A stretch of DNA of 64,000 nucleotides from Bacteroidota bacterium (lineage in GTDB: Bacteria; Bacteroidota; Bacteroidia; Bacteroidales; F082), in assembly GCA_024279935.1 (NCBI GenBank), contig JAJRQZ010000066.1, forward strand, positions 1 through 64,000, written 5' to 3'. Below the pieces are notes generated by a model that made no database searches, had not been told where the DNA came from, and saw only the letters and a list, made by a program, of their open reading frames with translations. The translations under genes and the position numbers were made by a program. Below are positions 12,822 through 30,798 of this stretch, one piece after another (position 1 is the first letter of the stretch; every line of letters begins with the position of its first letter).

Positions 12822-15524
12822 ATGATTTTTGGAAAAAAGAGCAATGGGGATAAATATAAACTTAATAGCCTAAAAGTTTATGCCTGGGATAGGACAGTAG
12901 GGGACAAGAAAAAATTCAGACGTGTATTCGAAAAAGCCGAGCTTAGCTATTTAAGTGTCGAATTGTCGATCTTCAATAAGTTTTTTGATGAGGAGGACTG
13001 GGGCTGTGAGCTGAAGTTTGTGTTGAACAAGATTGAAGAGGACGAAAGCTTAACAAGGATATGCGAAAAAGTCGATGATCTTGAAATTGCTAAAAGCGAA
13101 AATGTTTTTGAATATAATTATGGATGGGGCAGCGATGAGCATGGGTCGTTTTGGGATCCGGGAGCTTATGAATGGGAGGCGTTTATTGATGGGGAATATA
13201 TAATTTCCACAAAGTTCTATGTGGAAGATGTAGGAATTGTCAACAGCAGTGAGAACCCTTATTTAAGTGTTGGCTCCTTAAGGACTTATGAAGCCCCAAA
13301 GGGGGATTTAGAAGAATCCGAGAGAGTTTATCTAAAGACTTTCGATTCGGAAACTTGCCGCTATATCATGGGTGAGCTTAAATTCTTGAGTAAGCTTGAT
13401 CATGAATGGTTTTGTGAATTGTTCTTTAACTTTTATGACGATACCGGAATGTTGCTTGGTGGCAGCGACTCTTTTTTCCTTGTAACACCAAAGAATGGCG
13501 TAAACGAGGAGTTTACGATTACCTTAGGTTGGGGCTTCGACAAGCCCGGGGTTTGGATAAAAGACAATTATACTTTGGAAGTAAGTTTTATGGATACCCT
13601 TATCGCTGTTTTGCCTTTTAGTGTAGATAGTGAGGATGTCAGGAGGATAAGTGATCATGATGCGCTCATAAATGAAGATGCGTCAAATGTATTCAATAAT
13701 TCGATTATTGGCAAGGACACCAAAAAGCCGGACGATGAGGGTGATGTCCCCAATGACAAGGAAGCGGACGATGAGGTGGAACTATATATCGATGACCGTC
13801 CCGTTGAGGAAATACTTGCTGAACTGGATGCGTTGATAGGTTTGGGAAACATCAAACAAAAAGTAAGGGAATATATTGATTATGTGAGCTTTATCCAGTT
13901 GAGGGAAGAGTCGGGGATAAAAGAGGAAGATGAAGTGGTGCTGCATAGTGTCCTTACCGGCAACCCCGGAACTGGCAAGACCACAGTAGTTAAATTGTTA
14001 GGAAAAATTTTTAAGTCGATGGGATTGCTTTCCAAAGGCCATGTCCATATTGTGGAAGCCAGTGATTTGGTATCGGGATTTATCCGTCAAACGGGAAAAG
14101 ACACCAAAAAGGCTATCGAAAAGGCCAGGGGGGGGATATTGTTCATCGATGAGGCTTATATGCTTTATAAAGAAGGCTCGACTAGCGATTACGGGCCAGA
14201 GGCAATTGCCGCCTTGATTACCGAGATGAGCGACGGTAAAGGCGATATCGCTATTTTTATGGCAGGTTATCCGGCAGAAATGAAAAGCCTGATGTCGTCC
14301 AACCCGGGATTGAGGTCGCGCTTGAAAAACTTTTTTGAGTTTAAGGATTATACACCTGACGAATTATATGATATCTCGGAGTTCGCAGCCAAGAAACGTG
14401 CTTTGGTGATTTCAAGACCGGCTGCCAAAAAACTTAAAAAAATTCTTACCGATGCCTTTAGGGGCCGCGACAGAACCTTTGGGAACGCTCGCTATGTTTT
14501 TTCATTAATCGACGAGGCAAAAGTTAATCTAGGTATCAGGATAGTTAATGATAGCAGTCAGGACGAATTTACAAAATCTCAATTATCTACTTTGAAATAT
14601 ATTGATATAGAGGATATTAACGAAAATGAATTTGACAAGTCCCCAAATATAGCCCTGGATGAAGCATTATTGAAGGAAGCCGTAGCCGAGCTTGAGTCAT
14701 TGAGCGGCTTGGAAGAGGTGAAAAAAGAAGTCAGGGACTTGATCAAGCTTAGTAAGTATTACCGCGATATCGGAAGAGACGTGCTTAAAGCCTTTTCGAT
14801 GCATAGCATCTTCACAGGTAATCCCGGGACGGGGAAAACAACGGTGGCGCGCATTATGGCCAAAGTTTATAAGGCACTTGGGGTTCTTGAGCGCGGCCAT
14901 CTGGTAGATGTTGACGGATCGGCGTTGATAGCCGGATACCTGGGCCAGTCGGCACTGAAAACAAAGGAATTAGTCGAAAAAGCCATGGGCGGAATACTTT
15001 TTATCGATGAGGCCTATTCGATTACTGATGGAAACAATAGTGATTTCGGCAAAAAAGCAATAGCGGCGTTGATAAAGGAAATGGAGGATAAAAGAGGTAG
15101 TTTCGGAGTAATCGTTGCCGGATACACAAAAAACATGAACGACTTCGCGGAATCCAACCCGGGAATAAAATCACGCTTCGACCAAACTTTTCATTTCTCT
15201 GATTTCGATGAGGACGAACTCTGGGAAATAATGCTCAATATGTTTGAAGACAGTGATTTGTTACCAAGTAAGGAAGCCGGTGCCCATTTAAGGGAATATA
15301 TCTCGTTTCTTTATGAAAACAGGGATAAATTTTTTGGCAATGCGCGCTCCATGCGCAAGATCGTCGAAAAAGCAATCAGGAACCAGGAGCTTAGAATGTC
15401 GGACATCCCAAAAACAAAACGTAAGTCAGCTATGCTGAATGTAGTTGACATAGTGGATGTTATGGAATTTGTCCCGCAAAACGAGAAAGTATTGACGCGG
15501 CAGCCTTTGGGTTTTAAGCTCTAG
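12822..15524 (+). CDS. Double AAA+ ATPase of the CbxX/SpoVK type with a duplicated N-terminal domain
   Basis: A 900-aa soluble protein. Two complete AAA+ modules follow one another: Walker A GNPGTGKTT at about residues 381 and 665, Walker B LFIDEAY at about 440 and 726, and a RSRLK/KSRFD arginine-finger region in each. Both belong to the CbxX/CfxQ/SpoVK/EccA clade. The first 300 residues appear to be two copies of one domain, each with W-x-CEL then GWG and a closing beta-rich stretch; I do not recognise this domain. Such AAA+ proteins remodel client complexes, but the client here is unknown. The gene converges with the five-gene minus-strand set starting at 22141. It could serve that cluster; that link is inference from position. 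Confidence 0.85.
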   Translation: MIFGKKSNGDKYKLNSLKVYAWDRTVGDKKKFRRVFEKAELSYLSVELSIFNKFFDEEDWGCELKFVLNKIEEDESLTRICEKVDDLEIAKSENVFEYNYGWGSDEHGSFWDPGAYEWEAFIDGEYIISTKFYVEDVGIVNSSENPYLSVGSLRTYEAPKGDLEESERVYLKTFDSETCRYIMGELKFLSKLDHEWFCELFFNFYDDTGMLLGGSDSFFLVTPKNGVNEEFTITLGWGFDKPGVWIKDNYTLEVSFMDTLIAVLPFSVDSEDVRRISDHDALINEDASNVFNNSIIGKDTKKPDDEGDVPNDKEADDEVELYIDDRPVEEILAELDALIGLGNIKQKVREYIDYVSFIQLREESGIKEEDEVVLHSVLTGNPGTGKTTVVKLLGKIFKSMGLLSKGHVHIVEASDLVSGFIRQTGKDTKKAIEKARGGILFIDEAYMLYKEGSTSDYGPEAIAALITEMSDGKGDIAIFMAGYPAEMKSLMSSNPGLRSRLKNFFEFKDYTPDELYDISEFAAKKRALVISRPAAKKLKKILTDAFRGRDRTFGNARYVFSLIDEAKVNLGIRIVNDSSQDEFTKSQLSTLKYIDIEDINENEFDKSPNIALDEALLKEAVAELESLSGLEEVKKEVRDLIKLSKYYRDIGRDVLKAFSMHSIFTGNPGTGKTTVARIMAKVYKALGVLERGHLVDVDGSALIAGYLGQSALKTKELVEKAMGGILFIDEAYSITDGNNSDFGKKAIAALIKEMEDKRGSFGVIVAGYTKNMNDFAESNPGIKSRFDQTFHFSDFDEDELWEIMLNMFEDSDLLPSKEAGAHLREYISFLYENRDKFFGNARSMRKIVEKAIRNQELRMSDIPKTKRKSAMLNVVDIVDVMEFVPQNEKVLTRQPLGFKL

Positions 15525-15620: not shown

Positions 15621-16454
15621 TTAATTCGGGTGCAGACGTTGTATGTCATCGTTGTTCTTGACTACTTTCCTTCGCCTGCTTATCTTTGGCCTCCTTGGCT
15701 TTTTCCTCTTGGTTTTTTCTTCCGACCGGAATTTGATCTTTCTGTCCTCCTGGTTCTCCCATTCGCTAAGCTCGGCTTTAAACTCTTTAAACCCACCCTT
15801 TAATATCGTTCCCGCCGATTCGTCATCGTCAACTTCCTTCTTTCTCTTACTGGAGGAAAAGAAAAAGAAACCAATCAGCTTGATAACTAAATATACAATG
15901 CTTATAAATACTATCAGCGATATGGCAATAATTGTAAGGTTAGCCATTAATATACATAAAATACTGTAATACAGTATTCTTATGGGCGCATATCTTGTGT
16001 GCATTTTAATGCTCTCGATACATAACAAAACAAAAAGTGCAAGATATAGAAGAACTATCAGGTTCATAAACATTACAAAGGTCCCTGAGCTGAACAGGCC
16101 TGTTATCCCCTTTTCTTGGAGGAAACTTAAAGTGAAATACGAATATACGGCCGAACGGCTTTTCAGCCCCGCGATAAACAATAGAACAGAAATGAAGGAG
16201 GATGTTTTCAACGCCCACCAACTTTTGTTGAAATAGCTGTCGCGACCCAGGACAATTGCGTAAAAGTACTCGGGGATAATCCCGATGGAAAACGGGATTC
16301 GGTAATATAAGCTGAAGCCCGGGAAATTAGAATTGCTTTTGCCTGAGAAATAGGCGTCAATTTTCGATAAGCCTATTACCCCATATCTTAGCGAAACCCC
16401 CAAAAGGAATACTGATGCCGCAAAAACTATAATTGAAATCAAAAAGTTCATCAT
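15621..16454 (-). CDS. Multi-pass membrane protein with long basic cytoplasmic tail
   Basis: I do not recognise this 277-aa protein. It has about five to six hydrophobic segments in its first 195 residues, then a hydrophilic tail of some 80 residues very rich in Lys, Arg and Glu (KRKKPRRPKISRRRK near the end). A tail of this charge would lie in the cytoplasm and might contact membrane lipid, nucleic acid or an acidic partner. Its start overlaps the end of the preceding gene by 4 bases (ATGA), so the two are translationally coupled; it is the last gene of the leftward set. Function unknown. Confidence 0.72.
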   Translation of the reverse strand: MMNFLISIIVFAASVFLLGVSLRYGVIGLSKIDAYFSGKSNSNFPGFSLYYRIPFSIGIIPEYFYAIVLGRDSYFNKSWWALKTSSFISVLLFIAGLKSRSAVYSYFTLSFLQEKGITGLFSSGTFVMFMNLIVLLYLALFVLLCIESIKMHTRYAPIRILYYSILCILMANLTIIAISLIVFISIVYLVIKLIGFFFFSSSKRKKEVDDDESAGTILKGGFKEFKAELSEWENQEDRKIKFRSEEKTKRKKPRRPKISRRRKVVKNNDDIQRLHPN

Positions 16455-16951
16455 TTTATTTTCAGTGTTCTGTATAATTTTATTAGTGCGTATATTATTA
16501 ATAACAAGGCAAAGGTGGCAGCAATTAATAAGCCGCTAAACATTCCGGTGAAGAAGTAAATCAGCATAATAAGGCTAAGCAAAACACCATGTGCAATGCC
16601 GCTGTTTTTTTTGTGGGATTTAAGGGAAACAATGAGATTATAGATTATCAAAATAATAATTATACCAAATGTGCCGTATTTGATTATATTTATATAGTAC
16701 TGATAATTAACTGATTGTGCAGGAATTAACCAAGCGGATATCACCATTAGCAAACCTATTAGAAATGATGCCGATACAAGGTTTTTACTAATCACGGTAT
16801 TTTTAGAAACATTTCCCTCAACAGTAAAATATTTTTCGAAATCGCTCATATACCTAAATCCGAAAAACAGGATTATGAGCCATAAAAACAGTATTGCATA
16901 ATGATACCATTCTGTGAAAGCTAAGAATTCGAGTATTATAAAGCTGTTCAT
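16451..16951 (-). CDS. Small multi-pass membrane protein, unknown function
   Basis: A 166-aa protein composed almost entirely of hydrophobic helices, roughly five, with short loops and a short basic C-terminal end (KLYRTLKIK). I see no family motif. It overlaps the next gene by 4 bases and follows the pentapeptide/channel gene after a 73-base gap, in the same leftward set. It most likely forms a membrane complex with the 277-aa protein downstream; this is inference from the coupling. Confidence 0.7.
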   Translation of the reverse strand: MNSFIILEFLAFTEWYHYAILFLWLIILFFGFRYMSDFEKYFTVEGNVSKNTVISKNLVSASFLIGLLMVISAWLIPAQSVNYQYYINIIKYGTFGIIIILIIYNLIVSLKSHKKNSGIAHGVLLSLIMLIYFFTGMFSGLLIAATFALLLIIYALIKLYRTLKIK

Positions 16952-17024
16952 ATCATAAAGTTTGGTTTCTTACTATTGCAATTATAATGGCAATGCCGAA
17001 AATTAATATGATATTGATAAAAAA

Positions 17025-18881
17025 TTAAGCGTTTTGTAAAACTTGGCTAAATAGCGTAATCGTAAATATCGTAAGCAAGAACCAGCCGATAATTCCCTCA
17101 ATAATAGAAAGATACATTGCAAGACTATTCTCTTGCTCAGGTAAGGACCCGAATCCGATAACGACAAAGCTGTTCAGGCTGAGTATTAGCGAATTAACAA
17201 ATTTCACTATAAACACATAAGCAATAAAGCATAATGATATCAGTAATATAATAAGCCCTGACCAAAATTTTTCAATTGTTTCAAGAGACTCCCAGGCTTT
17301 TGGTTGGAAGTTAAGAGCATGGATGATTCTTGAAATAAAATTGAGCCTTATCTTGCCGACAAAAGTCAAAGTGCCTCCGAACAACTTTAATAAATGCGGT
17401 AATCTTTTCCCGTTTTTTTGGTAATAGTCAAAAAATGAATCTATTTCACTATAATTCCCCAATTCTGCACTATTTAGTTCCCTGTCATTTTCGAGTACCT
17501 TTTTCAATGAATCTTGCGACCCCACGTATTTCGCTAGAATGCCGAGCTGACTAACATAATATTTATAGTTCATGCCGTCCCATGCTGAAAAAGTCAGCAT
17601 ATATAAGAAAGTAAACCCAAGCAAGACCCATAATGATTGAATGAGTGATTTGCCAGGATTAGTTGCGTAATCGGAAAAATATTTTAGAAATATATTTAAC
17701 TTATAGTTAATCAGGTTGTTGAAACTAGGATTCACGCTTTGCTCAAATTTTTGTTTGCGAGTTTCTATATCCTTGATTTCAACATACGAAGCATTTGCCG
17801 ACCTTATGTCGCCCCTGTCATGGTATAGGGTGTTGAATTTATTGTAAGCACTCATCAAATCATTGTAAACCAAATTGTTGGAAAGTTCTGCATCGGTTTT
17901 GGCCTGAAAGATATTTACAGTGCCGTATTTGTCATCCCAAAAAACCGCGAGTTTTTCGCCCCCTAAATTGCTCCACGACGAATTAGTGTTCTTCTCCGGG
18001 AAGTCGAAATTTAGAATACCTATATATTTTTCTACAAAAAGCGAGTCTATCATAAGTGATTTCTCTATGTTCGATGAACTCAGGTTCAACACTTGAAGCC
18101 GGATCGAATCCAATAAAACATTGCCTAGATTTGTGTTTCCCAGGTTTATCGAAAAGATGTTCTCATTACCATTATTATCGAACCTGCTTGAGCTGATTGT
18201 CAGATTGCCGATATTTTTATCGCTTATTGAAAGTTGATAGTTTATGCCTTCTTCGTCTTTTTCCGAAAAGATTTTGTCGTCGGCTATGAAATTACAATCC
18301 TCGATATTAAGATTTTCAAGGCTGACGTCAATATTCAAGGTAGAATAAAACTTACAGTTTCTAAAGTTAAGTTTGTTTGCCGGGGAAAATTTGTTGCTAA
18401 TATCAACATCATTTTTAAAAATGCAGTTCTCGAATAATAATTGTTCCCTGCTGTGGGGAAAGTTCTCGAATTCCAGAGGGCAGTTAAACTGGCATCCTAC
18501 GACGTTCAGCTTGGTTAACTGCCAGTTCGTGAATTTTAAAGGAGTATTGTTCGAAAGATTAAAATCACAATTGTAAAAATATATTTTCTTCGACTTTTCG
18601 CTTGAAGGCGATATCTGATAAAGGCTGAAAAATACTTTGTCAATTAAGAAAGCCTTGTCGTTATCAGTAGATATTATTTCGTAATCGCTTATAATGCACT
18701 CTTTATCAGGACTATTTAACAGTGATACTAATTCAGAGATGCTTATAATCTGTTTTATGGTGTTTTGTTCGGCAACTTCCTCCTCTTCAGCAATTTCCTC
18801 TTGCTGGGGATACATTATACTACTTCCCGATAATATTAATGTGAAAAGAAATACTGTTATGTAAATAGGATTTAGCTTCAT
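17025..18881 (-). CDS. Exported pentapeptide-like solenoid fused to an ion-channel-like domain
   Basis: A 618-aa protein. A signal-like hydrophobic start is followed by a Glu-rich linker (EEIAEEEEVAEQ), then residues about 60-310 with spaced units such as IYFYNCDF, LNVVGCQF, LLFENCIF, LNFRNCKF and LNIEDCNF, the pattern of a right-handed beta-solenoid (pentapeptide-like) with a regular Cys column. A helix lies near residues 410-430. The C terminus has a helix, a short loop NSFVVIGFGSLPE resembling a potassium-channel selectivity filter (TVGFGD type), and a final helix. This suggests a membrane channel with a sensor outside the cytoplasm. The filter is not canonical, so ion selectivity is doubtful. 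It is separated by one base from the upstream gene. Confidence 0.75.
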   Translation of the reverse strand: MKLNPIYITVFLFTLILSGSSIMYPQQEEIAEEEEVAEQNTIKQIISISELVSLLNSPDKECIISDYEIISTDNDKAFLIDKVFFSLYQISPSSEKSKKIYFYNCDFNLSNNTPLKFTNWQLTKLNVVGCQFNCPLEFENFPHSREQLLFENCIFKNDVDISNKFSPANKLNFRNCKFYSTLNIDVSLENLNIEDCNFIADDKIFSEKDEEGINYQLSISDKNIGNLTISSSRFDNNGNENIFSINLGNTNLGNVLLDSIRLQVLNLSSSNIEKSLMIDSLFVEKYIGILNFDFPEKNTNSSWSNLGGEKLAVFWDDKYGTVNIFQAKTDAELSNNLVYNDLMSAYNKFNTLYHDRGDIRSANASYVEIKDIETRKQKFEQSVNPSFNNLINYKLNIFLKYFSDYATNPGKSLIQSLWVLLGFTFLYMLTFSAWDGMNYKYYVSQLGILAKYVGSQDSLKKVLENDRELNSAELGNYSEIDSFFDYYQKNGKRLPHLLKLFGGTLTFVGKIRLNFISRIIHALNFQPKAWESLETIEKFWSGLIILLISLCFIAYVFIVKFVNSLILSLNSFVVIGFGSLPEQENSLAMYLSIIEGIIGWFLLTIFTITLFSQVLQNA

Positions 18882-18882
18882 C

Positions 18883-21489
18883 TCAGTGTTTTAATATCTC
18901 CTTCTTTAGGTTCATTTTCTTGACAGAGTTATCAGTATCAAAGTCAAATAATAAATCACCCGATTCTTTGAATAGCTTAATGGAGTTCATGTCCAGCCAA
19001 TGGCTGCCGCCCCCGACATAAATACCCGACAGCACTTCAACCAGGATATTGCCGCTTTTGTATTTTACTATGCGTATCCGGGCATTGTTGTCAATCTTTA
19101 TCTTGTCGAGAAGAATAGGTTTTTCATTGCTGGTTTTTATAACGACAATTCCTTTTTCGTTTTTTAGGAACTTCATTTCCTTCAGGTTGTCATAAAATGC
19201 TGAGGCGTAGTCTTTAAACGATTTATTATATGTGTCGAAAGTCGATTTTATGTTAGCGCCCTGGATCTCAACGGTATTGGCCTTTAACAGATTGAGTGCC
19301 GCAAACAAGCCTGCAATGGTTTGCTCATATTCTTTTTCCTTGAGCTTTTTGTCTGTCGTATATAAGACTTCAGCTATGTTCCCCAGGTCGCCTTCAAAAT
19401 TATAGTTGACGAAATCGTTACTGTTCATTCCGGCCGTTGCATAGAACGAGCCTTTGACCAGTATGTTTTCGGAATCGTCCAGCTCGATGCCGTAATGATC
19501 GAAGTTCTCGCTTTGGCTATATAGCTTGGCCATTGTTTTTTCGCCCTTGGGATTGAATCTCACTGCGTAAATAAAACCCAGGCTATGGTCCAGCTTATCG
19601 ATTCCCGCTTTCTTTGCCCACATAAAACTACCATCCTTAGTGTATTTCGCCACAAAGATATCGGGGGCGTCAACAGCGTTGATCCCTAAGTCCCCAAAGT
19701 TTAAATTGTTTTCAAAATTGCCATAGACGTAAATCCCGTTATCATTGCCCATGACCATGCTCAATGCAATGTCGTTGCCCTTGCCCGTGGCCGGTTTCGC
19801 CCAAAGGGCTTTTAAGTCTGAGCTGTATTTTACGATAAAGGCTTCCCTGTCTTGGTTGTCCGATGTCAGTTTGATATCGCCGAAATTGGCTTCATCCATG
19901 AAATAGCCGCACACATAAATGTTTCCTTCGCCATCAAAAACCACATCATTCTGATTGTCGGCCTTAAAGCCTCCCGCCAAATTTGTTTCGACCCAGGCTT
20001 TTGTTGCTAATCCTGATTTGAGATGCTTGTTTTCGATTATAAACAGCTCAGCCTTTTCGCCACTTACCGAAGGCATCAGCATACCTGCTTTAGCGCCCAT
20101 AAATGTTGGGTCGGCTATGGTGAATTTCCTGTTTTTATATGTTAATGATGTTCCTTTTTGTGCCGGGCCAAGGTCAACAGCAGTGGCTATATGGCCCGGG
20201 AAGCCAACAGCCACTATTTCATTGCCCATCAGCGTTTTTACAAGGCAGGCAAATAAAATTGACCTGTCCTCGCAGTCGGCATAAGGATAGTTCAGCATTT
20301 CATCGGCAAAAAAGTATCTCTCCCTGCCAAAAACCTGCTGGTCGGTTTTATAGTCGAAAGCCCCTTGGACAAACGCCAATAGGATATTTGTTTTTTCGAT
20401 GTCGGACTTCCCCTTTAAAATAGGTCCGAAAGCATTTTTAATCGAGTTCTTCGACCTGTTTGTTATTACCGAGTTAAAATAAACCGATACATCGGAAAGG
20501 GGCATGGTATTGTAACACAGCATCATCTGTTCGTCAAAATCAAGCCTTACGACATATTTGTGTTTTTCGTATTCGAACTTATAATCTTTCGACTTTTTAA
20601 TAGGGTTGGTATAAAACGGCTTCCTGATAGTAAGGTCCATAAATATGTCGGCCTCGGGGAAATCGGCCATATAAGTCTCCAGATTATTGCCGTTTACATC
20701 GATCACATAATAATCAATACCCTTAATATTCACAAAATCAAGGTTATACATTTTATATACTGAAGGCAACAATAGAAACAGGCCCTTATTGTTGAAACCA
20801 ATTTTAGCCTTATATCTGCTTCTGTTCAACATTGTCCATTGAAACAATACCTGGAGGTTGCCACTGTTTGGGAAAACCTGTTTGCTGCTTTCCTTCAGCA
20901 GTTGGTAATAGCCCCACCGGTTGAGGTTTAGTGTGTTGGCAACCTCCGAGACCTGATATAGATAATGGTTGTAATTAACTTCCGACATCTGCATCCAGAA
21001 ATCGCTTATTGCGCTTGCCGACGGCTTTGCCATATCAAGCAGGAAGAAAGCCTCGTCGAGTTTGAAGACAAGTTGCCAGCCCAGGAAATCAACATCTATC
21101 GTACGGATATCAAAATCATTTGATTCCTCTTTTTTGATGCTTGGGTAAACGGAACCTTGATAGTATGCCTGGGTTTTGGCAATATCACACTCGATAGTAT
21201 TATCGCTGAGGATGACCTCATCAACAACAGGGATGGTTGACGGTTTTGGCCTTGTTGGTTTAAACGTCTCATGCCCGATATCATAACTTCCAAAGTTGTT
21301 TGACAGATAGTCAGAGAACTCCTTGTCGGTTTCGGCAACAAATGAATTGAACTTTTGTTGGGTTTCCTTTTCGAAGGTGTTGTACTCTTCCCTGATCTGC
21401 TTTTTAAAATCGTCAAAAGTTTGAGAATGTCCGGCAGGAATAGAAAATATAATCAGGGCTAAAACAAGTGATCTTGTTAAGCATTTCAT
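18883..21489 (-). CDS. Exported transglutaminase-like protein with SBBP-type propeller repeats
   Basis: An 868-aa protein with a signal peptide (LALIIFSIPAGHSQ). A transglutaminase-like core carries the Cys of YPYADCEDRSIL (about residue 404), the His of GFPGHIATAV (about 432) and the Asp of IADPTFMGA (about 459), a full catalytic triad. From about residue 510 come repeats of the SBBP type, with GNIYVCGYFM, FIVKYSSDLKALWAK, GIYVYGNFE and FVAKYTKDGSFMWAKKAG, likely a beta-propeller. The C-terminal 200 residues are unassigned. It would act in the periplasm or outside, probably as a protease or peptide ligase. It is 10 bases from the LPP20-like gene and abuts the channel gene. Confidence 0.82.
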   Translation of the reverse strand: MKCLTRSLVLALIIFSIPAGHSQTFDDFKKQIREEYNTFEKETQQKFNSFVAETDKEFSDYLSNNFGSYDIGHETFKPTRPKPSTIPVVDEVILSDNTIECDIAKTQAYYQGSVYPSIKKEESNDFDIRTIDVDFLGWQLVFKLDEAFFLLDMAKPSASAISDFWMQMSEVNYNHYLYQVSEVANTLNLNRWGYYQLLKESSKQVFPNSGNLQVLFQWTMLNRSRYKAKIGFNNKGLFLLLPSVYKMYNLDFVNIKGIDYYVIDVNGNNLETYMADFPEADIFMDLTIRKPFYTNPIKKSKDYKFEYEKHKYVVRLDFDEQMMLCYNTMPLSDVSVYFNSVITNRSKNSIKNAFGPILKGKSDIEKTNILLAFVQGAFDYKTDQQVFGRERYFFADEMLNYPYADCEDRSILFACLVKTLMGNEIVAVGFPGHIATAVDLGPAQKGTSLTYKNRKFTIADPTFMGAKAGMLMPSVSGEKAELFIIENKHLKSGLATKAWVETNLAGGFKADNQNDVVFDGEGNIYVCGYFMDEANFGDIKLTSDNQDREAFIVKYSSDLKALWAKPATGKGNDIALSMVMGNDNGIYVYGNFENNLNFGDLGINAVDAPDIFVAKYTKDGSFMWAKKAGIDKLDHSLGFIYAVRFNPKGEKTMAKLYSQSENFDHYGIELDDSENILVKGSFYATAGMNSNDFVNYNFEGDLGNIAEVLYTTDKKLKEKEYEQTIAGLFAALNLLKANTVEIQGANIKSTFDTYNKSFKDYASAFYDNLKEMKFLKNEKGIVVIKTSNEKPILLDKIKIDNNARIRIVKYKSGNILVEVLSGIYVGGGSHWLDMNSIKLFKESGDLLFDFDTDNSVKKMNLKKEILKH

Positions 21490-21499
21490 ATTTCCTTTG

Positions 21500-22141
21500 T
21501 TAAAAATCCAATATTTTGTCCAGTTTGTCCGACTGAACCTTGGTTTTTTCCTTTAGGCCCTTTTTAATTATTTCTTTTGCCATCTCCACGGCTGCATCGT
21601 AGCTATAACCTATTGTTACAAATATCTCGCTGTTCTTTCCCACTGCTTTGTCGGCCTCGAAAAATGTGCTGGTCCTTCCCATTTTCGATCCTACTATGGA
21701 TTTAAAGGTGGCAACTGTCTCGGTAACCGAAGCGGCTTCCTCAGCGTTAAGCTGTGCGTTTGCGATGTTGGTTTCTATCAAACCGGCTACTTCTGTCCCG
21801 ATCTGTCCGGCGAGGTTTACCTTGGCAACCTCATAAGCTTGTAGCTTGGCGGCCGTATGGGTCTCCCCGACAGCACGTGCATCTGCGACAAACCATTTCT
21901 TGTTTCCTTTGTCATCGGTCTCGTAGCGCTTTATCCAGGTATTCTCAATTTGTTTGTCCATGGGCAGTTGGCCGGGAGCAACCTTGAAACCCTCCTTCTT
22001 GAGTTTTCTGGCCTCCTTGCGGGCTTCTTTCATCGCTTTGGAATGAATGTCTTTTTTAATGGATTTTGTAGTTTGTGCGATAAGTGGGATTGAAATAATA
22101 AATGATAATACAATTACAGATATTGATAATAACTTTTTCAT
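21500..22141 (-). CDS. Exported LPP20-like protein
   Basis: A 213-aa exported protein. The signal peptide ends IPLIAQ; a charged helical segment (KAMKEARKEARKLKKEGF) follows, then a domain with WFVADARAVGETHTAAKLQAYEVA and ETNIANAQL, ending in FVTIGYSYDAAVEMAKE. This layout matches LPP20/FlgP-like domains: an alanine-rich helix against a sheet, binding the envelope periphery. It opens the leftward set and has its own TATCTTTG promoter at 22171-22178. The domain call is by pattern only and is moderate. Confidence 0.75.
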   Translation of the reverse strand: MKKLLSISVIVLSFIISIPLIAQTTKSIKKDIHSKAMKEARKEARKLKKEGFKVAPGQLPMDKQIENTWIKRYETDDKGNKKWFVADARAVGETHTAAKLQAYEVAKVNLAGQIGTEVAGLIETNIANAQLNAEEAASVTETVATFKSIVGSKMGRTSTFFEADKAVGKNSEIFVTIGYSYDAAVEMAKEIIKKGLKEKTKVQSDKLDKILDF

Positions 22142-22170
22142 ATATAAATATTTAAATTAATTAGCTGGCT

Positions 22171-22178
22171 CAAAGATA
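22171..22178 (-). promoter_or_regulatory. -7 element of the leftward operon
   Basis: The minus strand reads TATCTTTG, 30 bases before the ATG at 22141. It is the same octamer as the plus-strand element at 22219-22226, so both arms of the divergent cluster have identical -7 elements 40 bases apart. Confidence 0.6.
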
Positions 22179-22218
22179 GTAAATAATCTTTATTGTTATT
22201 CTTGTAACATTAATTTTA

Positions 22219-22226
22219 TATCTTTG
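22219..22226 (+). promoter_or_regulatory. -7 element of the rightward operon
   Basis: TATCTTTG lies 18 bases before the ATG at 22244 and faces away from the identical element at 22171-22178. The intergenic space is only 102 bases, so any regulator bound there could control both operons. Confidence 0.6.
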
Positions 22227-22243
22227 TTCACCAAGATGCTATA

Positions 22244-22915
22244 ATGACTTTAATAAATTCCGTAATCTTAAAGTGTCCTAATTGTTCTCATTTGCTTGAG
22301 GTCATCGAACTACAATCTTTTCATCTGTTTAAGCCCGAAATGTTCTCTGATGGGAAAATTGATTCAACCTCCTTGATTCCTGATGTTTCTGAAATCTTGA
22401 TTTGCACTAAATGCAATACCGATTTTTGGAGGGAAGATGCGATTTGTCTTAATCCCGATCAAGATTCAGACCCAGGGGCATTGCCTGCCAATCAGCCGTC
22501 CGGTCTCTTTTTAAGCTTTAATAGTGATTTGCGCTTATCGATTTCTAAATATTATAATAAACTGTTAAGTAGAGGGTTTGCCGATACTTATGATAAAGAA
22601 GTTTATTTGAGGACTCTGCTGTGGCACGGATTGAACGATATAACAAGGTATAAATCCAGGGCAAGCAAAGGTGTTATTGCTGAACAAGAAGGTCTTTTGC
22701 GCGACAATTTAAATAAGTTGATAAGTGTTTATAAACCAAGATATCCTGAAGAAGTTTTGCTCTTGGCCGAAATGCATAGGGAGCTGGGGGAATTTGACGA
22801 GGCAATTAACATTTTGGGGAAAGTAAACCGGGACGAATGCCTTTCAGCATATAAACAGATATTGGGGGCATGTAAAAAAAAGTCTGTTTCAGTATTTAAA
22901 ATACACAAAAATTAA
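22244..22915 (+). CDS. Zinc-ribbon protein with helical C terminus, unknown function
   Basis: A 223-aa cytoplasmic protein without signal peptide or membrane helix. Two Cys pairs, KCPNCSH at about residues 12-15 and ICTKCN at about 65-68, frame a zinc ribbon. The rest is helical with a TPR-like pair near the end (EEVLLLAEMHRELGEFDEAINILGKV). This order resembles DUF2225 proteins (zinc ribbon then TPR-like), but I cannot confirm the family. It is the only soluble cytoplasmic member of the rightward set and could be an adaptor or regulator. The next gene starts 4 bases after its stop. Confidence 0.7.
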   Translation: MTLINSVILKCPNCSHLLEVIELQSFHLFKPEMFSDGKIDSTSLIPDVSEILICTKCNTDFWREDAICLNPDQDSDPGALPANQPSGLFLSFNSDLRLSISKYYNKLLSRGFADTYDKEVYLRTLLWHGLNDITRYKSRASKGVIAEQEGLLRDNLNKLISVYKPRYPEEVLLLAEMHRELGEFDEAINILGKVNRDECLSAYKQILGACKKKSVSVFKIHKN

Positions 22916-22919
22916 TACT

Positions 22920-24197
22920 ATGAAATTTAAATTTATCTATCTATTTATTTTCTTGATCTCCTCAGAATTGGCTGTCTCTCAAAATGTGAAGTGCTTTATC
23001 CTGAGCGCGCCTGAAAAATCATTCTATAATATTAAAAAGATCGGGGTGCTGGAGGTGAACTGCGATAACAACCATCGCATGAACAAAGTAGTTACAGATT
23101 TGTTGATTGCCGATTTGGTGAATCAGCAGCGCGGGATTTATGATGAGGGATCTAAATACTGGGGCTTGAAGAAAGGAGAGGAAGGACAGACCTTTGTTAA
23201 AGGTGTCAAGACTGATTTTTACCAGATTATCGAGCGCGAGCAACTGGAAAAGATACTAAGGGAACAGAGGCTTTCCTTAAGTGGCGCCATCGACGAAGGT
23301 TCGGCTGCCGAAGTAGGGCGCTTACTCGGGCTTGATGTCATAATCATGTCAAACGTCAGCTATAACAGCATAGACGAGAGGGGGTCCAGCTTGTTGAACT
23401 TGGCTAGTTCCTCAGGCTCTAACTGCTTAAAGCGGATAGTAACGGTGAAGGGGACAATGAAAATGGTCTCTGTTGAAACAGCACAGATAATAGGAACTAA
23501 ATCAGCTGATTATACAGCGTCCATCCAGAAATGCGACGATCAGCGATCCGGTATCCCCCGCCCCGAGGCAATGGCGGAGATTTGCTTTAAGAACCTTGTT
23601 CACCAATTTGTTGATTATTTTGCCCCAGGCTATAAATATATAGAGTATGAATTGGAGAAAATACAATTGAAGCAGTTTAGGAAACAGGGCAAGGAAGCCT
23701 TCAGTTTAATCGAGAATGGCGACCTCGACAGGGCTTTCCCCATTATTTATGCAATGTTTGAGGCCGATTCGTATAATCCGAAAGCAGCATATAACCTGGG
23801 CGTTTTATATGAGATGGTAGGTTCTTACGAAGATGCTTTTGAATATTACAGCATTGCTTATGACCTTGATTACAGCGAGGGAAAATACGCCGAAGCAGCA
23901 AAGCGCTCGAAGGCCGGGATTGACTTAAACAATTATCTGGACGAGATAGGGCGTCCGGTTGAAACTTACTCTTTTACAAGTATGGATCCTTCGACCGCCC
24001 TTGCCGAAAAGGTTCAGCTAAAAGGAAATGGCGGCGACAGGGTTGTCGCTTACGAATTTCCCGATAAAAGCTCAAATATCGTAGCAAAAATACCAGGTGG
24101 CCTAGAGTTCAAGGTGATAGGGAAAAGTGGCGCCTTTTATAAAGTTCAGCTCAGGGGAACTAAAACAGCATATATACATAAGTCGAATATTAAATAG
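22920..24197 (+). CDS. CsgG-like exported protein with TPR and SH3-like domains
   Basis: A 425-aa protein with a signal peptide (LISSELAVSQ). Residues about 35-225 have the CsgG/curli-assembly pattern: a strand IGVLEVNC, then FYQIIEREQLEKILREQRLSLSG, and then DVIIMSNVSY. Residues about 245-330 carry TPR-like units (NPKAAYNLGVLYEMVGSYEDAFEYYSIAYDL). The C terminus is an SH3-like domain ending GAFYKVQLRGTKTAYIHKSNIK. No lipobox Cys is at the cleavage site, unlike pore-forming CsgG, so an outer-membrane pore is not assured. SH3-like domains often bind peptidoglycan. It sits in the rightward operon ahead of the 594-aa LPP20-like protein. Confidence 0.82.
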   Translation: MKFKFIYLFIFLISSELAVSQNVKCFILSAPEKSFYNIKKIGVLEVNCDNNHRMNKVVTDLLIADLVNQQRGIYDEGSKYWGLKKGEEGQTFVKGVKTDFYQIIEREQLEKILREQRLSLSGAIDEGSAAEVGRLLGLDVIIMSNVSYNSIDERGSSLLNLASSSGSNCLKRIVTVKGTMKMVSVETAQIIGTKSADYTASIQKCDDQRSGIPRPEAMAEICFKNLVHQFVDYFAPGYKYIEYELEKIQLKQFRKQGKEAFSLIENGDLDRAFPIIYAMFEADSYNPKAAYNLGVLYEMVGSYEDAFEYYSIAYDLDYSEGKYAEAAKRSKAGIDLNNYLDEIGRPVETYSFTSMDPSTALAEKVQLKGNGGDRVVAYEFPDKSSNIVAKIPGGLEFKVIGKSGAFYKVQLRGTKTAYIHKSNIK

Positions 24198-24234
24198 GCT
24201 TGATTTGATAAATAAAACCGTTAAACTACCTCAA

Positions 24235-26019
24235 ATGCTAAAAAAAGTTATCATCGCATCAATTATCTTGCTTTTTGGGTCTGGCGCCCATGCTCAAAAA
24301 CCTGCTTGGGCCGATTATTATGAACGACAGGAGATGTATCCCGGAAATGAGTTCCTGGTCGGTTTTGTATCAGGCGAAAACAGCAATGGCGAGGATGCGG
24401 GAACAATAAAATCGAAATATGAGGCCCTGTCGAAAGATAAGGTAGTCCAGAGCATACAGGTTGAGATAGAAAGCTACAATACCTTGGAAATCTCAAACGT
24501 GAACGCTAAGTCCGGCGAGGAGTTTCTTTCCAAGAGTGTGTCCTTCTCCAAGGCAAACATAAATGGGATGACCACACTAAGCTTCTACGACAGGAAGAAA
24601 AAGGAAGTTTATGCGATTTCTTATGTTAACAAAAAAGAACTGGCATTCTTTTATAGAAATACGATAAGCTCTTCCTTGGAAAGCGTAAGGCAGAAGCTAG
24701 GCGAGGGAAGGAAATATGCAAACAAGGCCGATAAGGAAAATGCGTTGCGCAGTTTTTACGAGGCCATGCCGTTCATAAATAAAATTGACGAGGCAAGTGT
24801 TTTGCTCACCGCCCTGAACAGGAAAATGTATGCCGATATCAATATGGGCGAAGTAAACAAGCTGAAGCTCGAGCTGATAAACGAGATCGATGCCATACTG
24901 AAGCCGAGCGGGCTGGATTTAAGCGAGTCGGCATATTTTGCGGCTTATGGAATATTCCTGCAGCTGGGCAAAATCGACGGGAAAATAAATTTATCGGGCT
25001 TTACTTTTGAGAACACCGGGCTGGAAAGCCGCTTTTCGGAAAAATGGAACGATGAATTTGCCGCGGCACTGGTGAAAGCCGGAAAATATGTCGTTGATAG
25101 AAACAACAGCGGCCCCGGTAAATACTCGGCAAGCGGAAATTATTGGCAAGAAGGTGATTACCTGAAGCTTAATGTTGATGTTTCGATGTACGGCAAAATA
25201 ATTGCCGTGTCCAAGGCTAGTATCCCGCTATCCTACCTGAAAAACGAAAGCATCGGTTTTATTCCTGCTCAAATTAATAAAATGAAGCTTTTGTCGATGT
25301 ATGAACTGAGTTTGATAAGTACCCCGGAAATAATCAAATTGGGGATGGCGACCACCGAACCAATTAAAATAGGAGTGCTAAAAAAATCTCCTGATGAAGA
25401 TGTTGTTGTGCAAAATATTCCTGTCAGGCTTGTTAATGCCGAGAGTGGCTTAAGCTTAGGGTTTGCAGTTGCGAACAAGGACGGGATAGCCGAATTTTAT
25501 TTGCCACCATTAAACTCGGGAAAAAAAGTGATGGCCCTGGAGGCCGGTTTAAACATTGCGAGGTATTTTGATGTCGATGAAAATTCCGTTTACTTCGCTA
25601 TTGCGGAAAACAAAAATCCCCTCAAGGCAATCACTTTCAACATAAACACTGCAAAGCCGACCGTTTATGTGCAAAGCATCGAGAAAACCCAGAACCGTAA
25701 GCTAGATATCAAAACTCTTGAACCGGCCGTAAAAGAGTTGCTTGCCGAAAAATCGTATAATTTTGTCGATACTGAAAACGAGGCGGACTTTATTGTTAGG
25801 ATCAAAGCAAATACCACAAGCTCAACAAATTATCGAGGGATCTATTTTGCCTATCTCGACGCAAATATATCTGTTGTGGAAGCTTCTTCGGGCGAAGAGG
25901 TTTATAAAACGCAGCTGGATCAAATCAAAGGTGGCGGGGCAAATTATACAAAAGCCGCCCGAAAGGCATATTTTGTTGGTGCCCAGAGAATTAAAGCGGT
26001 ACTGGAAGATGTATTCTAA
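24235..26019 (+). CDS. Large exported LPP20-like protein, multi-domain
   Basis: A 594-aa exported protein. The signal peptide ends GSGAHAQ, and the mature protein begins KPAWADYYERQ followed by EFLVGFVSGEN, a start typical of LPP20-type domains. About residues 150-340 are a helical then beta region; residues about 385-465 resemble a carboxypeptidase-regulatory-like beta domain (EFYLPPLNSGKKVM); the last 100 residues contain a sheet with SYNFVDTENEADFIVRIKA and YTKAARKAYFVGAQRIKAVLEDVF, again of envelope-lipoprotein type. The ATG at 24235 is chosen because it starts the signal peptide; a longer frame from 24127 overlaps the previous gene. Role unknown; it may share a complex with the CsgG-like protein. 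Confidence 0.78.
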   Translation: MLKKVIIASIILLFGSGAHAQKPAWADYYERQEMYPGNEFLVGFVSGENSNGEDAGTIKSKYEALSKDKVVQSIQVEIESYNTLEISNVNAKSGEEFLSKSVSFSKANINGMTTLSFYDRKKKEVYAISYVNKKELAFFYRNTISSSLESVRQKLGEGRKYANKADKENALRSFYEAMPFINKIDEASVLLTALNRKMYADINMGEVNKLKLELINEIDAILKPSGLDLSESAYFAAYGIFLQLGKIDGKINLSGFTFENTGLESRFSEKWNDEFAAALVKAGKYVVDRNNSGPGKYSASGNYWQEGDYLKLNVDVSMYGKIIAVSKASIPLSYLKNESIGFIPAQINKMKLLSMYELSLISTPEIIKLGMATTEPIKIGVLKKSPDEDVVVQNIPVRLVNAESGLSLGFAVANKDGIAEFYLPPLNSGKKVMALEAGLNIARYFDVDENSVYFAIAENKNPLKAITFNINTAKPTVYVQSIEKTQNRKLDIKTLEPAVKELLAEKSYNFVDTENEADFIVRIKANTTSSTNYRGIYFAYLDANISVVEASSGEEVYKTQLDQIKGGGANYTKAARKAYFVGAQRIKAVLEDVF

Positions 26020-26051
26020 AATTATATTAAAATCATAAAAATCAAGAACTT

Positions 26052-26501
26052 ATGGAAGATCAAGAAATCCTAACCGAAGAGACGCGCGAACTGACCGTTA
26101 ATCAGCGAACAAAAAAGTATTTAAACCAAATCCGTAACTGGACAATGTTCTTTGCCGTTTTGGGCTTCGTGGGCATTGGCATTATGGTTGTGGCCGGACT
26201 TTTTGTTTCCACGATATTTTCTGCATATAACCCCTCAGGGTCGATGCCTGCTGGATATCAGTACCTTGGCTTCGTTTATGTAGTGCTGGCCATGGTATAT
26301 TTGCCACCGCTTGTTTATCTGCTTAAATTCTCCACTAAAATGAAGGACGCAATTTATAAGTCCGATAATTTTTCATTGGAAAATGCCTTTCGCAACCTGA
26401 AATCGCATTTTAAGTTTATGGGAATCTTTACGATTGTGATGATAGTGCTGTATCCTATTATTATGATGTTTGCGTTTTTTGCTGCCGACATGATGAAATA
26501 G
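26052..26501 (+). CDS. Small membrane protein, DUF5362-like
   Basis: A 149-aa protein with a charged N terminus and about three hydrophobic segments (residues roughly 32-56, 70-93 and 118-145). The signature around RNWTMFFAVLGFVGIGIMVVAG and LENAFRNLKSHFKFMGI resembles DUF5362 membrane proteins of Bacteroidota. The cytoplasmic segment between the second and third helices would carry NFSLENAF. It closes the rightward set 32 bases after the LPP20-like gene. Function unknown. Confidence 0.72.
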   Translation: MEDQEILTEETRELTVNQRTKKYLNQIRNWTMFFAVLGFVGIGIMVVAGLFVSTIFSAYNPSGSMPAGYQYLGFVYVVLAMVYLPPLVYLLKFSTKMKDAIYKSDNFSLENAFRNLKSHFKFMGIFTIVMIVLYPIIMMFAFFAADMMK

Positions 26502-28391: not shown

Positions 28392-29348
28392 TTATACTTT
28401 TCTGCCAATGGCCTTTTCTGCGGAAGCAACGATATGCCCGGCATCCAGGCCGTAGTGCTTCATTAGCTCGGCAGGTGTGCCGCTTTGCCCAAAGCTGTCC
28501 ATAACAGCCACATATTCCTGCGGTATCGGGAAGTTCCTTGCCATTACTTGAGCAACGGAATCTCCCAGGCCCCCGTTAAGGCTATGCTCTTCGGCAGTAA
28601 CAACGCATCCTGTTTTCTTGGCCGATTCGAGGATTGCCTTTTCGTCGAGTGGCTTAATCGTGTGAATATCAACAACTTCTGCGCTAATCCCTTTACGGTT
28701 AAGGATTTTTGCGGCTTCCAATGCTTCCCAGACCAAATGACCGGTCGCGAAAATACTGACATCTTTACCGTCAATAAGCTTTAGCGCCTTCCCGATTTCA
28801 AATTTCCGGTCGTCGGTAATGAAATTTGGAACGACAGGGCGTCCGAACCTCAAATAAACTGGTCCGATATGATCGGCGATGGCTTTTGTGGCCTGCTTGG
28901 TCTGATTAAAGTCGCAGGGGTTGATAACCGTCATGCCTGGCAGCATCTTCATCAAACCTATATCTTCCAGTGTTTGATGCGTAGCACCATCTTCGCCAAG
29001 CGTAATGCCGGCATGTGAGGCACAAATCTTGACATTCTTTTCAGAGTAGGCCACTTCCTGGCGAATTTGGTCGTAAACCCTCGCTGTGGAGAAGTTTGCG
29101 AATGTCCCGGTAAAGGGGATGTGCCCGCCGATTGTTAATCCGGCCGCCGTACCTATCATATTAGCCTCGGCAATGCCCATCTGAAAAAACCTCTCCGGGA
29201 AATTATCGGCAAAAGCGTTCATCTTTAGCGATCCGGTCAGGTCGGCACACAGGGCAACAACTTTAGGGTTGCTTTGCCCCAGCTCATAAAGCGCTTCCCC
29301 AAATCCGGAACGGGTGTCGCGTTTGTTAATTATCTTATATTCTTTCAT
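28392..29348 (-). CDS. Transketolase, C-terminal subunit
   Basis: A 318-aa protein corresponding to the pyrimidine-binding and C-terminal domains of transketolase. Visible are FMQMGIAEANMIGTAAGL-type text (FFQMGIAEANMIG here, with the catalytic Glu), SHAGITLGEDGATHQ, and LNGGLGDSVAQV near the end. With the N-terminal subunit at 30799-31644 it forms the two-chain enzyme of the non-oxidative pentose phosphate pathway. The ATG at 29348 (MKEYKIINKRD) is preferred; a start 33 bases upstream at 29381 lacks homology. Oddly, a VWA gene separates it from its partner gene. Confidence 0.92.
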   Translation of the reverse strand: MKEYKIINKRDTRSGFGEALYELGQSNPKVVALCADLTGSLKMNAFADNFPERFFQMGIAEANMIGTAAGLTIGGHIPFTGTFANFSTARVYDQIRQEVAYSEKNVKICASHAGITLGEDGATHQTLEDIGLMKMLPGMTVINPCDFNQTKQATKAIADHIGPVYLRFGRPVVPNFITDDRKFEIGKALKLIDGKDVSIFATGHLVWEALEAAKILNRKGISAEVVDIHTIKPLDEKAILESAKKTGCVVTAEEHSLNGGLGDSVAQVMARNFPIPQEYVAVMDSFGQSGTPAELMKHYGLDAGHIVASAEKAIGRKV

Positions 29349-29412
29349 CTGTATAATTTCTCTGTTCTCTACTTCTTTCAATGCTGTATTTTTAATATGT
29401 GATTATTCATTT

Positions 29413-30789
29413 CTACAATTTAATTTTTGTCGTTTTTGACGATGTGATCTCAAAATCCTCCGTTTGGCTATAAGCCGACTGAGTGCTGTAAATAGGTCGG
29501 TAAACCAGTCGATAGAAGCCGGGTTGCAAATATATCGACTCCTGTTTTGAGGAGTTCTCGTTAAGGTCGAGGATTTTAATCTGTTTATTGTCAGTTAAAT
29601 AGTATAAAAACCCGTAAACCCTGATATTTTTTTGAATGCTGAGGATTCCGGGGCTGTCGATCTTAACGGAAGTAGTCTTGTCTGCTTCAATGTTTATTTT
29701 GTCAAGCTCAATTATTGGAAGGCTTAGAACTTCTATCTTATAGCTTCCTTGTAAATAAGATATTTTTTCGCCCAGCCACTGGGTGTTGATGATTTTGTTC
29801 TTAATGCTTTTTACAATTACTTTAGGTTTGTATTCCGAAGGATAATTGCCGTTGAGGGCAACAGATAGCTTCCCGCGGGGGCAATTTGCATAAACAATAT
29901 TGTGCTTTCCCTGGGTGAGGCTGACATTGTTGATCTCAATCGGGGGAAATGTCCCTAAAGTGATTTTATACTCAAGCAGGGGGTCAACTACCAAGGTGTC
30001 GGGCAGGCCCTTGTTATTTAGGGTGTGAACAAAGTTATAAACGATTTTACCACTTGCCATGTCGGTGAAGGCCATGTTGATGTTGCTTTCCTTTGCCCGG
30101 CCGTTTTTGTCGAGCAGATTGACTTGCAAGGTCGTTTTGCTAAGCACTTTTTTAATGATGATATTAAGGGTGCTTTGAAAGCTGTCAATATCGGGGGCGT
30201 TAAAATATGATCCCGCACAGTCGAATATTTGGCTGTTATCGGCTCCGATACCTATAATAAACGGTCTAAGAGCGATACCCTCTTGTTGTAAGCTGGCCGA
30301 GGCTTCGCAAATATCGCCATCGCATTCCTCTATGCCATCGCTGATTAAGATAATTATGTTCCGATAGTTCCCGTTGTTGCCGAAATCCGATTTCGCCCTT
30401 TCCAGCGACATGGCTATGGGCGAGGTTCCCTGCGGTTTAATGTATTTCAACCTCTGTTTTATCCGGTCGAAGTTATTTGCCGCAAAAGCAACTTCAAGTT
30501 TTGTATCATTGCAGTTTTGGGGGGGGTAATTGCGTTGATGACCATAAATCCTGAGCGCAACTTGCAGTTTGTCGGTCGTTTTAAGGCTGTCCAGCACATC
30601 CGAAAGGATTTTTGATGCTATCTTGAATTTCACTTGTCCCTGCCATTTGCCGCTCATGCTTTTTGAGGCATCGAGAATGAAGAGTATCCTCGTGGTTTTT
30701 TCGCTTTTAATTTCCGGTTGGGCCATCGAAAGACTTGCCAGGGAAAGGAAAGCTGCAACAAAAACAATATTTAAGACCGACAGTTTCAA
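29413..30789 (-). CDS. Exported VWA-domain protein inserted between the transketolase genes
   Basis: A 458-aa protein with a signal peptide (FVAAFLSLASLSMAQ). Residues about 30-215 form a VWA domain with a complete MIDAS: LDASKSMSG, the Thr of QGTSPIAMSL and the Asp of LISDGIEECDGD. The remaining 240 residues are beta-rich repeats without a recognised name. VWA proteins with this architecture bind metal-dependent protein partners outside the cytoplasm. The gene shares strand with both transketolase genes: it starts 9 bases after one and ends 64 bases before the other, so it must be in the same transcript. A metabolic link is not apparent. Confidence 0.85.
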   Translation of the reverse strand: MKLSVLNIVFVAAFLSLASLSMAQPEIKSEKTTRILFILDASKSMSGKWQGQVKFKIASKILSDVLDSLKTTDKLQVALRIYGHQRNYPPQNCNDTKLEVAFAANNFDRIKQRLKYIKPQGTSPIAMSLERAKSDFGNNGNYRNIIILISDGIEECDGDICEASASLQQEGIALRPFIIGIGADNSQIFDCAGSYFNAPDIDSFQSTLNIIIKKVLSKTTLQVNLLDKNGRAKESNINMAFTDMASGKIVYNFVHTLNNKGLPDTLVVDPLLEYKITLGTFPPIEINNVSLTQGKHNIVYANCPRGKLSVALNGNYPSEYKPKVIVKSIKNKIINTQWLGEKISYLQGSYKIEVLSLPIIELDKINIEADKTTSVKIDSPGILSIQKNIRVYGFLYYLTDNKQIKILDLNENSSKQESIYLQPGFYRLVYRPIYSTQSAYSQTEDFEITSSKTTKIKL

Positions 30790-30798
30790 TTTCTATAA

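Follow-up and report, generated by a model that had tools for sequence, protein, structure and literature searches.

Do the nine divergently oriented envelope genes carried by a Bacteroidota bacterium of the Bacteroidales lineage F082 form a single system, and if so, what does that system do? The genes lie within a 64,000-nucleotide stretch of DNA (the window; positions 1 to 64,000 of contig JAJRQZ010000066.1, assembly GCA_024279935.1). An initial annotation described five minus-strand and four plus-strand genes separated by 102 bp with identical −7 elements on both strands, and we verified the coordinates, the strands and the element TATCTTTG on each strand. Reading outward from the gap, the minus arm encodes LPP213 (m1), the transglutaminase-like protein TG (m2), the channel-like protein CHAN (m3) and the membrane proteins mem166 (m4) and mem277 (m5); the plus arm encodes the zinc-ribbon protein ZnR (p1), a CsgG-domain protein (p2), LPP596 (p3) and a DUF5362-like protein (p4). 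Packing is tight: m5 and m4 overlap by 4 bp, and the gaps are 1 bp (m3-m2), 10 bp (m2-m1) and 4 bp (p1-p2). Gene p3 starts at the ATG at 24235, the longer GTG-initiated open reading frame at 24127 being mechanical.

We surveyed the 100 nearest-relative genomes (below, g denotes a genus, G a genome and L a locus). Genes for the CsgG protein, LPP596, LPP213 and full-length TG occur in exactly the same 24 of these 100 genomes, and the CsgG gene is always accompanied by the cluster. Full-length CHAN is found in 23 of the 24; in the remaining genome (G001) the contig ends before CHAN. At least five of the nine genes thus co-occur, in genomes that represent nine genera of one family and usually include mem166, mem277 and ZnR as well. 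The genes form a single divergent cluster in 22 of the 24 genomes, with the halves on separate contigs in the other two (G012 and G052), and their order is nearly fixed. Thirty-six genomes of the family lack both the CsgG protein and full-length CHAN, including a 99% complete assembly on a single contig (G006) and congeners in g2, g3, g4, g7, g10 and g15. An exception (G020) has a CHAN gene cut by the contig end and no neighboring TG. A wide named scan found at least 32 channel loci, a lower bound because the scan used peptide patterns; all are in metagenome-assembled genomes, nearly all labeled Bacteroidota, Bacteroidales or Marinilabiliales. This conservation is far beyond chance. The block, which encodes exported, membrane and energy-using proteins grouped around the channel-like one, is either retained whole or missing across this family of uncultured bacteria; it is therefore very probably a real cell-envelope machine that has no name, and the earlier proposal of a self-contained envelope machine gains support from the all-or-none co-occurrence, with its membership list corrected as follows.

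The five genes named above stand together, but the original nine-gene list missed a tandem AAA+ ATPase gene beyond the mem277 end and counted DUF5362, which is peripheral. All 17 cluster genomes outside g4 and g9 carry the AAA+ gene, as against 5 of the 36 family members without the cluster (Fisher p 8e-10, with no correction for relatedness). Several genera have this gene next to the mem277 end in convergent orientation, and in the window only 96 bp separate the two genes. Its product exceeds the cut-off of the NCBIfam family spore_V_K (475 bits). In the seven genomes of g4 and g9 (L057-L062, L072) the AAA+ gene is absent, and a HerA-like ATPase gene and an MltC-like lytic transglycosylase gene are located between ZnR and CsgG. 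A SUKH/TPR gene adjoins mem277 in most clusters outside g4 and g9, including that of the sister species G003, but is missing from the window locus. DUF5362 adjoins the cluster in only three close species of one genus, and the next, lipoprotein-like gene does so in fewer. The AAA+ gene belongs to the unit.

The two arms also share a history. Genera are monophyletic both in an FtsK tree and in the cluster trees. Trees of both arms (TG+CHAN+LPP213 and CsgG+LPP596) group g1+g7+g16 and g15+g3, each with support 100; FtsK rejects g1+g7+g16 (approximately unbiased [AU] test, p 0.013) and g15+g3 (AU p 0.006), and both arms reject the FtsK group g15+g7, FtsK being a single marker and the tested groups having been picked after the trees were seen. 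The two arm trees are mutually consistent but conflict with FtsK, which suggests that the unit was transferred as a whole. Most simply, it would be inherited vertically within genera and from time to time be passed intact from one genus to another. With its all-or-none genes, its divergent order, the same between-genus history in both arms and its accompanying ATPase gene, the locus is one functional unit.

Table 1. Genes and promoter region of the divergent cluster in the window
Feature	Coordinates	Strand	Description	Basis
AAA+ ATPase	12822..15524	+	Tandem AAA+ ATPase (SpoVK/CbbX/EccA-like) with N-terminal non-ATPase region, 900 residues	Two AAA and two AAA_lid_6 domains
m5 (mem277)	15621..16454	-	Predicted inner-membrane protein, 277 residues, at least three transmembrane segments, charged C-terminal tail	Hydropathy
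m4 (mem166)	16451..16951	-	Predicted inner-membrane protein, 166 residues, four transmembrane segments	Hydropathy
m3 (CHAN)	17025..18881	-	Channel-like protein	Signal peptide, pentapeptide-repeat-type beta-helix (about 44-290), helical linker, transmembrane segments, putative C-terminal pore SLNSFVVIGFGSLPE
m2 (TG)	18883..21489	-	Exported; transglutaminase-like domain and SBBP/beta-propeller-type repeats (about 500-640)	Triad, profile matches
m1 (LPP213)	21500..22141	-	Exported; predicted LPP20/SHS2-like fold	Model with predicted local distance difference test (pLDDT) 83.4; PDB fold matches
Divergent promoter region	22142..22243	.	Bacteroidota-type −7 elements	TATCTTTG at 22219-22226 (+) and 22171-22178 (-)
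p1 (ZnR)	22244..22915	+	Cytoplasmic; CxxC...CxxC zinc-ribbon and TPR-like, 223 residues	Weak zinc-ribbon and TPR matches
p2	22920..24197	+	CsgG-domain/TPR/SH3_3 protein, 425 residues, exported, no lipobox	Pfam
p3 (LPP596)	24235..26019	+	Exported; LPP20-like N-terminal and DUF4136-like C-terminal regions	Relatives' matches
p4	26052..26501	+	DUF5362-like membrane protein, peripheral	Over Pfam cut-off

What the unit might do depends on its proteins. Since the window proteins pass Pfam cut-offs only for CsgG and SH3_3 (both in p2) and for DUF5362 (p4), we built families from the relatives (A1, CHAN; A2, LPP213; A3, LPP596; A4, TG; A5, CsgG). Signal peptides were recognized by inspection in four proteins. 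Central to the block is CHAN, which the initial annotation called pentapeptide-like and channel-like. The pentapeptide label is marginal, with a repeat match in 4 of 23 CHAN relatives. A structure model (pLDDT 72.5) places a beta-helix at about residues 44-290, the profile of which gives weak PDB matches to AlbG (E 0.0015) and HalA (E 0.11). The channel label draws on several lines. The profile of the last 84 residues gave 17 PDB matches, all of them inward-rectifier potassium channels in which the alignment falls on the pore helix and filter (E 0.57-9.8), and Ion_trans_2 matches 2 of 13 CHAN members (E 0.0021), leaving the window protein unmatched. The C-terminal region has a pore-helix/filter pattern, SLNxFxxxGFGxxPE, followed by an inner helix. 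Among 23 sequences G576, G578 and P581 are invariant and F577 nearly so; the GFG filter, positioned between two predicted transmembrane segments, is kept in A1 and A6, with GYG in one member (L045). Each line is weak, and combined their best reading is that the CHAN C-terminus is a potassium-channel-type pore. This does not imply selectivity, since neither the Thr nor the Asp of TVGYGD is conserved. Stand-alone CHAN paralogues were seen in genomes that also have the cluster (L165, 9312-11075; L166, 2281-4071; L167, 176-1999; L168, 2565-3494).

The other minus-arm products are exported (LPP213, TG) or predicted inner-membrane proteins (mem166, mem277). For the LPP213 model, the ten best PDB fold matches are all Lpp20, Tip-alpha or HP1454 (best E 0.011, probability 0.99), so an LPP20-like fold is predicted for this protein, for which no Pfam family exceeded its cut-off. 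TG keeps a Cys406-His433-Asp460 triad in which H433 and D460 are invariant and C406 is at least 90% conserved among 37 relatives; CylK propellers are matched by the repeats toward its C-terminal end (E 6e-27), and the MltC lytic transglycosylase from other clusters has a similar N-terminus (hhalign probability 89). The earlier transglutaminase/SBBP label is in line with the triad and the propeller matches; the profile of the transglutaminase core itself (PF01841) stays below its cut-off with a marginal profile match in 4 of 37 TG relatives (best E 0.052). mem166 holds the same position within the cluster in most relatives and matched no Pfam family; mem277, also without a Pfam family over cut-off, belongs to a family of 31 loci (duplicates counted) located in the cluster.

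On the plus arm, p2 passes the Pfam cut-offs for CsgG (PF03783; 38.1 bits, cut-off 20.8) and SH3_3 (32.6 bits), in agreement with its first description as CsgG/TPR/SH3. Its N-terminus reads ...ELAVSQNVKC, with an invariant Q21 that is the likely first mature residue and with no lipobox cysteine. ZnR has neither a signal peptide nor a transmembrane segment and keeps its cysteine pairs across 21 sequences, as expected of the cytoplasmic zinc-ribbon protein proposed earlier, its profile matches being weak; ZnR was not detected in clusters L053, L054, L055 and L058. The DUF5362 assignment of p4 passes its Pfam cut-off. The claim of two LPP20-like proteins holds in part: neither LPP213 nor LPP596 of the window reaches a match to the Pfam family LPP20 (PF02169), which 6 of 25 LPP596 relatives do match (best E 1.6e-5), while the LPP213 model resembles Lpp20 and Tip-alpha in fold. 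DUF4136 matches 16 of 25 LPP596 relatives. PDB sequence searches with LPP213 and LPP596 returned nothing useful, and direct profile comparison between the two was not significant.

As for the divergent promoter, TAnnTTTG occurs 69 times and TATCTTTG six times on both strands of the 64-kb window, and a match to TATCTTTG alone is weak because of the former count. Three further species from the same genus (G002, G003 and G004) retain the TATCTTTG pair at both positions. Several relatives (L047, L049, L089) have an inverted repeat, TATTGTTA-N6-TAACAATA, between their divergent operons, and in the window this repeat is degenerate; the conserved dyad of the g7/g16 divergent promoters does not score above shuffles in single sequences, and for this reason we claim no regulator.

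Taken together, the predicted protein properties point to a trans-envelope module in which periplasmic components regulate a cation channel of the inner membrane, with assembly or reset driven by an ATPase, a reading to which we assign a probability of roughly 40%. CHAN would reside in the inner membrane as a tetrameric potassium-channel-type cation pore with its beta-helix in the periplasm, and mem166 and mem277 would be inner-membrane partners. LPP213, TG, the CsgG/TPR/SH3 protein and LPP596 may form a periplasmic assembly kept close to the outer membrane or the peptidoglycan. A role on the cytoplasmic side or in wall remodeling would fall to ZnR together with the AAA+ ATPase, whose place is taken in other genera by the HerA ATPase and MltC. 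We conjecture that the periplasmic assembly senses envelope state or passes it to the CHAN beta-helix, upon which the pore opens or closes; TG might cleave or cross-link a component, leading to gating, and the ATPase could assemble or reset the complex. We suggest only tentatively that such modules constitute a new trans-envelope signaling or effector class of the Bacteroidales. In this class an inner-membrane potassium-channel-type pore with a pentapeptide beta-helix in the periplasm would be under the control of a periplasmic LPP20/CsgG/transglutaminase-like assembly, the cytoplasmic ATPase would be exchangeable, and related LPP213/TG modules would use a caspase-type protease instead.

Several observations count against channel control. 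The channel assignment is statistically weak in every single search, the pore region is modeled at low pLDDT, and the filter lacks the signature Thr and Asp. CHAN homologues also stand alone (L165-L168, L114-L116), which indicates that the channel can function independently of the cluster. Relatives of LPP213 and TG occur in other Bacteroidales gene sets with caspase-domain proteins (L138, L063, L169), and the partnership is therefore not universal.

Relatives of LPP213, TG and LPP596 are also found with PEGA-domain and LPP20 proteins (L064, L068) or with WD40 proteins (L126). Because such relatives occur in different sets and CHAN homologues occur alone, the window cluster represents a single stable assortment out of a wider repertoire of envelope parts. 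LPP213-family genes lie beside caspase (C14) genes at L138, L139, L063, L135 and L169, sometimes with LPP20/DUF4384 and TG relatives.

The same parts could instead build a trans-envelope export or assembly apparatus, in which an ATPase drives a periplasmic or outer-membrane CsgG/LPP20 conduit and MltC or TG opens the wall. The HerA/TrwB-type ATPase and MltC inside the g4/g9 clusters, the EccA-like AAA+ protein in other genera and the CsgG domain of p2 would all suit such a machine. However, we recognized no beta-barrel, usher or cargo gene in the cluster, p2 has no lipobox, different genera carry different types of ATPase, and the conserved membrane protein resembles an ion pore more than a translocon, which makes export rather unlikely.

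It is unlikely as well that the cluster regulates envelope integrity or peptidoglycan, with the CsgG-fold protein acting on wall enzymes in a manner loosely reminiscent of LpoB and the role of the channel limited to maintaining turgor. The SH3_3 domain, MltC and the MltC-like N-terminus of TG fit this role, and LPP20-family proteins have roles in the envelope. No penicillin-binding protein or synthase is found in the cluster, however, and its all-or-none, patchy presence speaks against a housekeeping function in the wall.

Defense was suggested from the outset, here as a programmed-death module whose periplasmic or cytoplasmic sensing opens the channel and depolarizes the cell, in parallel to the caspase-type executioners beside LPP213/TG relatives. 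The patchy distribution and the probable transfer of the cluster as a whole would accord with this, as would the pentapeptide-plus-transmembrane layout of CHAN, which recalls HalA, the caspase C14 genes adjoining LPP213/TG relatives and the SUKH domain in the usual neighbor gene. Direct support did not emerge: none of the nine genes matched the PADLOC 2023 defense families and the AAA+ protein matched them only by its generic ATPase core, the HalA family score is 16 against a cut-off of 250, no nucleotidyltransferase gene was seen in the cluster and no mobile genes beside it, and the monophyly of the genera implies mainly vertical inheritance. We consider a defense role improbable. That two or more independent operons became neighbors by chance in one lineage is very improbable given the same arrangement in nine genera, the all-or-none presence and the matching arm histories, even though LPP213/TG or LPP596 occur in other contexts in some relatives (L063-L069, L120-L134).

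The cluster is a conserved multi-gene system without a name in Pfam, NCBIfam, PADLOC or the open-access literature that we searched, where its combinations (CsgG with LPP20, LPP20 with transglutaminase, LPP20 with caspase, and CsgG/CbbX/SUKH/pentapeptide) are undescribed. If CHAN is a channel, a Gram-negative cell would have a means of gating ion flow across the inner membrane from the side of the periplasm and outer envelope, and LPP20 and CsgG folds, best known from flagella and curli, would be tied to ion-channel control. The exchange of ATPase sets and the caspase-linked relatives make the logic of the module testable through comparison.

Elsewhere in the window, transketolase is split into two minus-strand genes (N-terminal half, 30799-31644; C-terminal half, 28392-29381), between which lies a gene for an exported von Willebrand A domain protein (29413-30789; region 28392-31644, minus strand). 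A plus-strand gene (31915-34845) encodes a 976-residue fusion of a glycoside hydrolase family 3 domain and a beta-lactamase-type domain.

Comparison with known systems sets the cluster apart. It shares with the flagellar FlgO/FlgP/FlgT module, to which it was first likened, an LPP20/SHS2-type fold in an exported protein and the presence of several such proteins in one cluster, but it has a channel, TG and an ATPase. The FliF/YscJ family is absent from the genome (96.5% complete), the same search being positive in four control genomes. FlgP rings depend on a long beta-hairpin insert between the SHS2 helix and the second strand (PMC12222027); at this place, between alpha-1 and beta-2, the LPP213 model has a helix (133-153). 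On these two grounds the flagellar comparison is not supported, and we rejected a flagellar accessory module.

We likewise rejected membership in curli secretion. The likeness is the CsgG domain of p2, whereas p2 lacks a lipobox and is fused to TPR and SH3, and no adjacent curli genes or curli-like open reading frames were identified in the cluster or its relatives. The partners of the PSP envelope-stress system (PMC11237479) include no CsgG, CbbX or transglutaminase protein, and this candidate was also set aside. Hailong HalA resembles CHAN in having a pentapeptide-type beta-helix followed by membrane helices, with a weak profile and fold match, but the CHAN signal peptide would put the helix in the periplasm, and the partners are different; no HalB-like nucleotidyltransferase was recognized among the conserved neighbors, no search having been aimed at HalB. 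Identity with HalA was rejected at 16.1 bits against the NCBIfam family NF051894 (cut-off 250).

Inward-rectifier and other two-transmembrane potassium channels (Ion_trans_2) share with CHAN the pore-helix and filter pattern followed by an inner helix, but CHAN lacks the Thr and Asp of TVGYGD and carries an N-terminal, predicted periplasmic beta-helix, and the statistics are weak. The caspase/DUF4384/LPP20/TG operons of the Bacteroidales (L138, L063, L169) differ from the cluster in having caspase-domain proteins and in lacking CHAN and this CsgG protein, but their LPP213 and TG proteins are homologous to those of the window.

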